This document shows positions 6,186 to 63,738 of a stretch of 64,000 bases of DNA, in pieces. Under the pieces are notes generated by a model that ran no database searches, was not told the origin of the DNA, and was given only the letters and a program-made list of their open reading frames with translations. Each line of letters begins with the position of its first letter. Within the stretch, counting starts at the first letter, position 1. Both the position numbers and the translations under genes were made by a program. This DNA is from Chrysosporum bergii ANA360D (lineage in GTDB: Bacteria; Cyanobacteriota; Cyanobacteriia; Cyanobacteriales; Nostocaceae): NCBI RefSeq assembly GCF_029891735.1, contig NZ_JANQDH010000062.1, positions 1-64,000 of the forward strand, written 5' to 3'.

Positions 6186-6233
6186 CCCCATGTCTGAAGC
6201 CATTAGCTCTGCTCGCCGTTGATATTTCCGTCA
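6186..6233 (+). repeat. 94-bp dispersed repeat, copy A (truncated)
   Basis: This copy keeps only the right half of the 94-bp unit, from CCCCATGTCTGAAGCC to GATATTTCCGTCA. The left hairpin is lost. It lies in the 102-bp gap between sbcC and the DevA-like gene, where it must overlap the promoter or 5' UTR of the latter. It is inverted relative to copy B at 9424-9506. Confidence 0.85.
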
Positions 6234-6274
6234 AGCTAAAGACCAATCACGAACCCTCTAGTCCCGTGAGTATG

Positions 6275-9423: not shown

Positions 9424-9506
9424 TGACGGAAATATCAACGGCGAGCAGAGCTACTGGCTTCAGACATAAGGGTTAGCCATTGGCGATTTCAACCGCCTTC
9501 CCCTTT
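9424..9506 (-). repeat. 94-bp dispersed repeat, copy B
   Basis: A nearly full copy in inverted orientation. The left hairpin reads GGCGGTTGAAATCGCC on the minus strand, with a G:T pair where copies D and E have A:T. It sits in the 348-bp spacer between the start of sbcC and the secreted protein gene at 9644; the rest of this spacer shows no gene. Confidence 0.85.
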
Positions 9507-16806: not shown

Positions 16807-16890
16807 ATGGCAGAAGTTACCACATTTCCCCCCTCCTTGGGAAAGATGACTTAGAAGGATCGAAAATTTTTTGATACATCTTCCTTAACC

Positions 16891-16911
16891 CAGATGCCCT
16901 CTGGGCATCTG
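16891..16911. terminator. Bidirectional terminator serS / hydrolase
   Basis: A perfect 9-bp stem CAGATGCCC / GGGCATCTG with a 3-nt loop, midway between the two convergent stop codons. Confidence 0.75.
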
Positions 16912-16923
16912 TGTAACTAAATA

Positions 16924-17784
16924 TTAAACCTGTGCCAACCAAGCCACAATCTCAGCATTCACCATATCTGGAACCTCATCATGGGGACAATGACCAGCAT
17001 TAGCGATGGGAACAACTTTAATGTCCTTCCCATTCTCACCAGCCTGTTCATAAATTTTCGCCCCAGTAATTGGTGTCCAAGGATCATCAGCCCCCCAAAT
17101 CACTAACAAAGCACTTTGCACCTTTGGTAACAGTTCCTCTGGACCAGGACCAGGAGGAGCGGTTAGGATAGAAGCAAAAACCTGTTGCGCCCCCGCATCA
17201 CAAGATGGAGTATAAAGAATATCAATTAACTCATCTGTTATCGCTTGACGGTTGCGGTAAACTTGGTATAGAGTGCGACGAATTTGGGATTTTTGACGAA
17301 TGCGGTTATAAACAAATTTACCTGTGATAGGCGATCGCACCAACTTGTTAAAAGCAGCCATTACCATTCTTAAAGGTGGATTTAGCTCATGGGGACGATG
17401 ACTCAAACCACCAGCACAGTTAATTAAAACACCACCGGCAGTAATTTGTGGATGTTCTGCCAGCACCATCAAACTTAACAGCGCACCAATAGAGTTACCA
17501 ATAAACACAGTCGGTTCTTGAATATGTGCAGCCCAAAAATCTTTCAGCAATTCCACCCACACATCCACAGTGTAGTTAATTGCCGCCTTATCTGACCCGC
17601 CAAAACCCAAAAGATCCACAGCAAAAACCCGGTAGCCCGCATCGGCTAAAACCGGGATATTTTTCCGCCAGTGTCCAATAGAAGCACCAAAGCCGTGAAC
17701 CAGTAGCAAAGGGCGACCTGTACCCATAACGGTATATTGAATTTTGTAACCCTGCCAATTCCAAACTAGTCTTTCTAAGCTCAT
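16924..17784 (-). CDS. Alpha/beta hydrolase
   Basis: A 286-aa alpha/beta-fold hydrolase. The oxyanion region LLLVHGFGASIGHWRKN (about residues 27-43), the nucleophile elbow GNSIGA (Ser at about 98), a late Asp in WGADDPWTP and the catalytic His in AGHCPHDEVPD are all visible, so it should be active. It resembles the plant-plastid and cyanobacterial group of uncharacterised hydrolases; the substrate is unknown. I place the start at MSLERLVW (ATG 17784); an upstream in-frame start would read through antisense group II intron sequence. Its whole promoter region is therefore intron- and repeat-derived DNA. Confidence 0.85.
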   Translation of the reverse strand: MSLERLVWNWQGYKIQYTVMGTGRPLLLVHGFGASIGHWRKNIPVLADAGYRVFAVDLLGFGGSDKAAINYTVDVWVELLKDFWAAHIQEPTVFIGNSIGALLSLMVLAEHPQITAGGVLINCAGGLSHRPHELNPPLRMVMAAFNKLVRSPITGKFVYNRIRQKSQIRRTLYQVYRNRQAITDELIDILYTPSCDAGAQQVFASILTAPPGPGPEELLPKVQSALLVIWGADDPWTPITGAKIYEQAGENGKDIKVVPIANAGHCPHDEVPDMVNAEIVAWLAQV

Positions 17785-18045
17785 GAAAGGTATTTGCTGT
17801 TTAACGGAGATGTAATGGAAGTTGACCACATCTTACCCCTTTCTAAAGGTGGAAAAGATGAACATAAAAATCTACAACTATTACACAGACATTGCCACGA
17901 TAAAAAGACAGCCAATGATGGAAGTCTTACAGGTATTCATGACAAGAACCATACCACTTAGGAGCCGTATTATGTGAAAGTCTCACCCACGGTTTTGGAG
18001 GCGAGCCGATCAGTCACCTGACTGGCTTAGTTTAATTGTATAATT
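17785..18045 (+). mobile_element. Group II intron 3' remnant with HNH fragment
   Basis: Plus-strand frame 17791-17961 reads FNGDVMEVDHILPLSKGGKD, then EHKNLQLLHRHCHDKKTAND and a TAG; this is the HNH endonuclease end of an intron-encoded reverse transcriptase. It is followed directly by GAGCCGTAT...GTGAAAGTCTCAC...ACGGTT (17962-17995), the domain V signature of bacterial group II introns, and by a domain VI-like hairpin (CAGTCA / TGACTG, 18010-18023) ending near TTTAAT. The reverse transcriptase, maturase and all upstream RNA domains are missing. A frameshift around KGIC/FNGDV shows further decay. Not mobile by itself. Confidence 0.85.
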
Positions 18046-18053
18046 ATAAACTG

Positions 18054-18147
18054 ATTAGTTGAAGAATCGGGAAAGCGGTTTTAATCGCCAACGGCTAACC
18101 CCCATGTCTGAAGCCATTAGCTCTGCTCGCCGTTGATATTTCGGTCA
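18054..18147 (+). repeat. 94-bp dispersed repeat, copy C
   Basis: A full-length copy running from ATTAGTTGAAGAATC to GATATTTCGGTCA. It begins about 9 nt beyond the group II intron tail. Its left hairpin has a G:T pair (AGCGGTTTTAATCGCC) in place of A:T in copy D. Confidence 0.9.
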
Positions 18148-18358
18148 ACCACCCAGGAACTATACCCTCTTGAGTAGAGACTAATAATAAGTATTGTTAA
18201 TAGAGGCGGCTTGATTCTGTAGATAGATGCTTCCAAAATTTGACTTATATCTGTTAAATTTGAATTAATATTATGAGGAGAGCAGTATCTAAAGCATTTG
18301 CCGATGGGATATGGAGCATTGTAATTTGCCCAAGTGAAGGTGATACTTCTAAAGTAAG

Positions 18359-18380
18359 AGTGTAGATGTTTGTCTACACT
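18359..18380. promoter_or_regulatory. Hairpin in the ndhS leader region
   Basis: Perfect 8-bp arms AGTGTAGA / TCTACACT with a 6-nt loop, 49 nt before the ndhS ATG. There is no T-run after it, so it is more likely a leader structure or operator than a terminator. The spacer 18148-18358 holds no recognised gene. Confidence 0.4.
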
Positions 18381-18428
18381 ACTAACAACTATTAAGCTAT
18401 AAACACTAAACCAGCGAGAGTAAACACC

Positions 18429-18623
18429 ATGATTTTGCCAGGCTCGACAGTTCGCGTTAAAAATCCCGCAGACACATATTATCGCTACGAAGGACTTGTA
18501 CAACGTGTGAGTGATGGCAAGGTAGCTGTGCTATTTGAAGGTGGCAATTGGGATAAACTAATTACCTTTCGCCTATCAGAATTAGAAACCGTAGAACTGA
18601 AAGCAGGACGAAAAGGAAAATAA
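18429..18623 (+). CDS. ndhS: NAD(P)H dehydrogenase-like complex subunit NdhS
   Basis: A 64-aa SH3-like protein matching NdhS, the ferredoxin-docking subunit of cyanobacterial and chloroplast NDH-1, which drives cyclic electron flow and respiration at the thylakoid. [20 protein letters not shown] and [20 protein letters not shown] are characteristic. The length is normal. ATG at 18429. It is 52 nt upstream of the HAS-barrel gene on the same strand, so the two are probably co-transcribed. Confidence 0.9.
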
Positions 18624-40540: not shown

Positions 40541-40753
40541 TTAAACATCCTTTGACACTCTCCACGCTATCCGAGGGGATTCCAGCGTCACTGATGTTCC
40601 CTCTACTGGCGTTACTTCCCGTCTGCCCGACGGAGCCGCGTTTGCACGATTCAAAATTACTTTGGCTGCATTGACATCTCTTTGTTGGATGTGTCCGCAG
40701 TGCAGGCAAGAAAGAACCGTAGTTTTAACACCTACGGCATGGTAGAATATCAC
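40541..40753 (-). pseudogene. tnpB (IS200/IS605) zinc-ribbon/C-terminal remnant
   Basis: An open minus-strand frame encodes HAVGVKTTVLSCLHCGHIQQ then RDVNAAKVILNRANA. CxxCGHxxxRDVNAAKxIL is the TnpB zinc ribbon plus the final RuvC aspartate block. The last segment (SPRIAWRVSKDV) is also as in intact elements. The second CxxC half of the zinc finger and all N-terminal parts are missing, and the open frame stops at the left edge of a 94-bp repeat region. Not functional. Confidence 0.8.
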
Positions 40754-40789: not shown

Positions 40790-40883
40790 ATTAGTTGAAG
40801 AATGGGGACGGCGATTAAAATCGCCAACGGCTAACCCCCATGTCTGAAGCCGGTAGCTCTGCTCGCCGTTGATATTTCGGTCA
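40790..40883 (+). repeat. 94-bp dispersed repeat, copy D
   Basis: Full-length copy. Internal features: GGCGATTAAAATCGCC hairpin at 40810-40825, and CAACGGC (40825-40831) pairing with GCCGTTG (40865-40871) around a GGC..GCC inner stem. It begins 37 nt beyond the tnpB remnant and ends 12 nt before the stop of the 541-aa gene. Confidence 0.9.
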
Positions 40884-63394: not shown

Positions 63395-63644
63395 AACTGC
63401 TATATTAATCTCTGTAGAATGAGAATTGTAAACGATTCACCTTGAAATGTGAAGTGTTACTTTCACCTTCTCGCTGCAACTACAGGACGAAATATCTACC
63501 GTAGGTTAGATTCTATCCCTGGTACAACGTAATTTGATCATATTGCATAAAAGTTGGAATATGATAGTTTGGTAGGCTATTTTTATGATTTTTTCGGTCG
63601 CCCGTCTAAATTTATCTCTCGGAAAATCGTCTAATATGCCTAAT

Positions 63645-63738
63645 TGACCGAAATATCAACGGCGAGCAGAGCTAATGGCTTCAGAGATGGGGGTTAGCCT
63701 TTGGCGATTTTAATCGCCTTCCCGATTCTTCAACTAAT
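63645..63738 (-). repeat. 94-bp dispersed repeat, copy E
   Basis: A full-length copy on the minus strand, with the left hairpin GGCGATTAAAATCGCC intact. It ends 18 nt before the terminal inverted repeat of the IS630-type element. Confidence 0.9.

Follow-up and report, generated by a model that had tools for sequence, protein, structure and literature searches.

How does a gene keep a usable start when a mobile element has decayed into its 5' end? This question is raised by a locus of Chrysosporum bergii ANA360D in positions 1 to 64,000 of contig NZ_JANQDH010000062.1 (this whole stretch of 64,000 nucleotides (nt) is called the window), where a minus-strand α/β hydrolase gene runs into the 3' tail of a plus-strand group II intron, followed at a short distance by a dispersed repeat termed repeat C (Table 1). 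From comparison with relatives, it is fairly probable that intron decay beheaded the hydrolase gene, which would now be read from a GTG within the intron antisense (GTG17829) or else from an internal ATG (ATG17784). An initial annotation made from the letters alone had recognized the intron tail and taken ATG17784 as the start codon.

Intron tail and its junction with the hydrolase gene

The intron tail is identified by several lines of evidence. The reading frame of the HNH fragment occupies 17806-17958 and is closed by TAG. A match to RF00029 follows at 17960-18036 over the full model length with 26.4 bits (E 0.0045 for 601 bases), which is below the gathering score of 40; at the gathering score, no Rfam match is found anywhere in the window. 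Group II introns are expected to carry a domain VI and to end in AY, and the domain VI hairpin and the 3' end ...TTTAAT of the tail fit this rule. DNA matching the tail (E ≤ 0.001) occurs in 67 of 145 genomes of the family, with the own genome counted, and the best matches outside the own genome (88-89% identity) extend from 17804 or 17806 to exactly 18036. The copies in genomes G066 and G104 are 85-89% identical to the tail. G104 carries an intact intron (L231:1081-3473) of 2393 nt with the 5' end GTGCG, which encodes a protein of 592 amino acids (aa) with RVT_N, RVT_1, GIIM and HNH domains, and the tail is aligned with it over 231 nt at 85.7% identity, both ending at the same base. Thus Pfam and the homology up to 18036, with RF00029 below its gathering score, agree with the initial annotation of a group II intron tail with an HNH fragment, domain V and domain VI; the intact copies elsewhere are clearly related to it in sequence, and everything 5' of the tail has indeed gone, as homology to relatives starts only at 17804/17806.

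The window copy is dead. The 5' end GTGYG and domains I-IV of a functional mobile intron are absent, as are the reverse transcriptase and maturase domains of the intron-encoded protein, of which 51 aa of HNH remain. Its domain V is weakened: better-preserved copies score 58-59.2 bits with RF00029 (domain V of L231, 58 bits), and the fold energy of domains V and VI is -23.1 kcal/mol in the window copy versus -34.3 kcal/mol in an intact copy.

The hydrolase matches Abhydrolase_1 of Pfam over 16927-17784 (E 6.8e-27) and, among PDB sequences, meta-cleavage hydrolases (best E 2.1e-19). Its 5' end was compared with 109 rows of relatives, made up of 29 loci (loci being given for 30 of 52 matches, the own one included) and 80 kept out of 125 loci; the rows represent 100 distinct coding sequences, and some genomes are present twice. 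By ungapped extrapolation, the in-frame start of every one of the 109 relatives precedes the column of ATG17784 by 7-12 codons (by 18 in L059), and none of them has Met in that column. The start chosen in the initial annotation is therefore not native. Typical relatives read MTGTTQQLPS before this column and VTLEK from it, and the window reads ...ISVKQQIPF and MSLERL at these places in a single open frame.

The position of the cut can be placed by the nucleotides upstream of this ATG. The 18 nt preceding it are identical at a mean of 10.1 positions (maximum 14) to 31 distinct relatives with the same spacing, falling to a mean of 2.2 of 12 for the further 12 nt upstream. When all 109 relatives are taken, the mean is 8.5 of 18, a value that 6 of 2000 shuffles attain. 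Of the 19 nt at 17785-17803, ten intron copies aligned in register share just 5-7. Since the relatives match this segment and the intron copies do not, the junction lies at about 17803/17804, inside the gene, at native codon 5, and this comparison shows that the native start codon and the first four codons are lost. The truncation had been placed within a base or two of the start codon, with the intron beginning at 17785; the cut actually falls in the coding region, intron homology begins at about 17804, and the 19 nt in between belong to the hydrolase gene.

Table 1. Features around the 5' end of the hydrolase gene (window coordinates)
Feature	Position	Strand	Remarks and basis
α/β hydrolase open frame, GTG17829 to stop	16924..17829	-	301 aa; MVNFHYISVKQQIPFMSLERL...; open reading frame (ORF); Abhydrolase_1
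ATG taken as start in the initial annotation	17782..17784	-	native codon 11; Met in 0/109 relatives
Surviving native hydrolase codons 5-10 (K QQIPF)	17785..17803	-	then junction at ~17803/17804; match to relatives
GTG, candidate new start codon, in antisense intron	17827..17829	-	ORF; comparison with relatives
AGAAAGGGG, Shine-Dalgarno-like, 6 nt before GTG17829	17836..17844	-	duplex energy with assumed 16S 3' end
Group II intron 3' tail	17804..18036	+	233 nt; 5'-truncated copy of 2393-nt intron
C-terminal HNH fragment of intron-encoded protein	17806..17961	+	51 aa with stop; Pfam HNH PF01844, E 4.1e-12
Domains V and VI, intron 3' end ...TTTAAT	17960..18036	+	RF00029, 26.4 bits; fold energy
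Spacer between intron and repeat C	18037..18053	.	17 nt; minus-strand TATAAT 18048-18043; may be DNA of the original upstream region
Repeat C, dispersed repeat, terminal piece of IS200/IS605-type elements	18054..18149	+	copies in own genome and relatives
ndhS, divergent neighbour	18429..18623	+	adjoins hydrolase in G066 without intron or repeat

A series of events can be proposed for this arrangement. A group II intron with an HNH-bearing reverse transcriptase protein would have been inserted in antisense orientation at the 5' end of the hydrolase gene or a short way upstream of it. Its last 233 nt might have been left by incomplete reverse transcription at insertion or by later deletion; in the latter route, a longer copy would first have been inserted, and a deletion reaching from its HNH region into the hydrolase gene would then have shortened it. 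Both routes would remove the native segment between codon 5 and the intron 3' junction, and both fit the data equally. The loss would also have taken the native start codon, the first four codons and a conserved upstream block, and the hydrolase frame would by chance have continued without a stop past the junction and into the antisense HNH segment. Transcription would then depend on a promoter other than the native one, located within the intron tail or past it. Initiation at GTG17829 would yield a 301-aa protein in which about ten intron-antisense residues precede the native KQQIPF, with ATG17784 as a fallback start.

Candidate starts, promoter and expression of the hydrolase

The putative ribosome binding sites were compared by duplex energy, for which two lengths of the 16S rRNA 3' end were assumed. 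AGAAAGGGG gives -8.3 or -12.6 kcal/mol with the one or the other length, and ATG17784 gives +1.2 kcal/mol. Among 3408 ATG/GTG sites of the window, 86 (2.5%) or 11 (0.3%), again according to the 16S end assumed, are as strong or stronger, and none of the 109 native starts of the relatives reaches the energy of the GTG17829 site. Translation is predicted to occur most likely from GTG17829, next from ATG17784, with silence being possible. A further proposal, advanced here tentatively, is that the intron antisense serves as the working 5' end of the hydrolase gene, supplying the ribosome binding site, GTG17829, some ten initial codons and possibly the promoter, and so giving a chimeric protein.

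Some observations weigh against a gene still read from GTG17829. The GTG recurs in all eight other intron copies tested, where duplex energies run from -4.0 to -8.4 kcal/mol with the shorter 16S end; the Shine-Dalgarno-like site is accordingly something that the intron sequence brings with it by chance, and was not selected to start the hydrolase. The native hydrolase starts use almost no Shine-Dalgarno sequence (median 0.2 to -0.9 kcal/mol), and its strength may matter little in this gene. The hydrolase also seems dispensable nearby, since it is reduced to a 157-base-pair remnant beside ndhS in G104 and is not found at E ≤ 1e-80 in G001, a genome that is 89% complete. Finally, the estimate of coding constraint given below spans the whole branch, which is more than the time since insertion, and function after the insertion is thus unproven.

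The candidate that comes nearest is initiation at ATG17784; this codon would have arisen by mutation of native codon 11 once the native start was lost, and the frame up to GTG17829 would be an untranslated leader. This is possible, if somewhat doubtful. In its favour, ATG is used as a start more commonly than GTG, and the conserved stretch of the protein, LERLVWNWQGYKI, follows it directly. The absence of Met from the relatives at this column is also what is expected if the codon was fixed to restore a start. However, this ATG has no ribosome binding site, as the above energies indicate, and the native codons QQIPF upstream of it are still recognizable and in frame, as expected if they are translated. 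Detection of the peptide MVNFHYISVKQQIPF would speak against a start at ATG17784.

That the beheaded gene is unexpressed, a young pseudogene, is unlikely. It would be in keeping with the loss of the native start and upstream block, as well as with the state of the gene in G104 and G001. On the other hand, the frame is full-length without any stop or frameshift, the ratio of nonsynonymous to synonymous substitution rates (dN/dS) against G066 is 0.107, and the polarised changes are 36 synonymous and 23 nonsynonymous on the window branch versus 17 and 8 on the G066 branch. By these substitution patterns, the coding sequence is still under constraint.

As had been proposed, the 5'-truncated intron, antisense to the hydrolase, now constitutes the upstream region of this gene. 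Relatives carry a conserved block before the start codon, with a consensus near ACTATATaAAGaAAtACTTTAtgAATCTTAATA followed by ATG (97 distinct upstream sequences). When a profile of this block was run on the minus strand of 17785-18430, the best scores were at or below those of shuffled sequence, which indicates that the native promoter is lost or unrecognizable. The claim that the promoter must derive from the intron or the repeat goes too far: no sigma-70-like site was found in a search of the minus strand of 17700-18450, and 18150-18428, which is single-copy in the own genome, is also available upstream. It is likewise improbable that the native promoter is kept in the 17-nt spacer and that only the 5' untranslated region and the first codons were replaced. 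The spacer does hold a minus-strand TATAAT and a 9-nt match, TATAATTAT, to the upstream region of the intron-free G066 locus. However, the match is not significant (p 0.058), the TATAAT has no -35 element and is one of 21 on the minus strand of the window, and the profile of the native block performs over 17785-18430 no better than on shuffled sequence.

The comparison with intron-lacking relatives bears on the assembly. G066 has the hydrolase at C40:35942-36818 and, next to it, ndhS (within C40:34714-35596) in the divergent orientation seen in the window; neither intron nor repeat C interrupts them, which argues against misassembly at the intron. ndhS is also present in G001, the sole other genome of the same genus. 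An artefact of assembly or binning that fused a hydrolase contig with an unrelated intron copy is very improbable: the genome is a draft of 120 contigs with repeats at the junction, but the genes flanking the intron are neighbours in G066, the hydrolase remnant of G104 also lies beside ndhS, and the 5' part of the tail is shared with no other intron copy of the own genome.

Other intron copies, repeat C and flanking DNA

A search of 17700-18200 against the own genome listed 40 matches (40 of 72 candidates scored), namely the query itself, four other intron tails and 35 matches in repeat C. The own genome thus has five intron tails among the matches listed, with the window tail included. A GIIM profile search of this 98% complete draft gave no match, and hence no intact partner intron. 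The other four tails are a 215-nt mini-copy, two copies that combine truncation with internal deletion, and a tail some 80 nt long. The mini intron (L010:3828-4042, on C78) has the GTGCG 5' end and the 3' end with almost all between them deleted. The two truncated copies, L009 (C115) and L011 (C108), have almost coincident 5' cuts, 15 nt from each other in L231 coordinates; each is without most of the protein, whose N-terminus is joined to its tail end. Contigs C86, C126, C43, C73 and C45 of G066 start inside an intron copy; introns appear to break this assembly, so that the intron copy number of G066 is underestimated.

In relatives, a 64-aa ORF without any Pfam match, which is divergent from TnpB, ends within the repeat C sequence (L244), and an IS200-type TnpA lies at the edge of the repeat (L247; Y1_Tnp 9.1e-42). 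Repeat C is thus, by sequence context, a terminal piece of IS200/IS605-type elements. A constant position at the right end of a TnpB gene, with both in one orientation, was considered for repeat C and rejected, because just 3 of 27 own-genome loci with the TnpB zinc-ribbon profile have any repeat C match and the relatives show the side of the small ORF or TnpA. Four more copies or pieces of this end repeat lie in the window at 6186-6234, 9424-9502, 40790-40883 and 63644-63738, and the one at 40790 adjoins a TnpB fragment (40655-40735, minus strand).

Repeat C had been placed 9 nt past the intron end and the pair attributed to a shared insertion hot spot. The measured distance is 17 nt (intron end 18036, repeat start 18054). 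No repeat is found in the 150 nt after the other four own-genome intron tails, and only one of the 24 repeat copies listed with 60 nt of upstream flank follows an intron tail. Being together in just one of five tails and one of 24 listed copies, the two elements do not bear out a hot spot.

As for the flanks, serS neighbours the hydrolase in the window, with 16807-16923 between them, and in G066 and G001 serS and ndhS are on different contigs; the end of a rearrangement may lie in this interval. On the other side, about 190 base pairs (18197-18385) between a conserved ndhS upstream element and ndhS are missing in G001; they are single-copy in the own genome, and part of them matches G066:C35:17000-17132 at 75%. 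The window contains no tRNA genes.

Relation to known systems

The reverse transcriptase/maturase/HNH intron of G104 has the same domains V and VI and HNH C-terminus as the window copy, at the 85.7% identity given above. Unlike it, the window copy misses about 2160 nt at the 5' end and is without a catalytic core, its domain V being weakened. Fragments of mobile elements can supply a gene with a new 5' end. The present case is alike in that the native start and upstream region have given way to element DNA, and differs from such donors in general in that the element is a group II intron, which would be read antisense.

Truncated group II intron remnants in bacteria, as presented in part of PMC4424553, are similar to the copies of the own genome, all five of which (among the matches listed) are deleted and one of which, the window remnant, adjoins an IS200/IS605 end. 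Unlike them, the window remnant keeps its 3' end, and the loss enters the coding start of a host gene. Introns that fragment by losing their 3' terminus, the reverse of the window copy, are described in part of PMC4496777. According to the same portion of PMC4424553, class CL2 is almost exclusively cyanobacterial within bacteria. In a limited literature search, the portions of PMC4496777, PMC4424553 and PMC3522654 that were available gave no description of an antisense group II intron providing a gene start.

As truncated group II intron copies are common in bacteria, the remnant itself is ordinary genomic debris; its only unusual part is the putative in-frame fusion, and existing knowledge of group II introns is unchanged. 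With an intron-free locus in G066 and an intact intron in G104, the window offers a clean example of how a mobile intron, as it decays, can reshape the beginning of an adjacent gene while that gene shows no visible sign of having been killed. If GTG17829 is used, a translation start can be contributed by the strand opposite to the reading frame of an intron-encoded protein.
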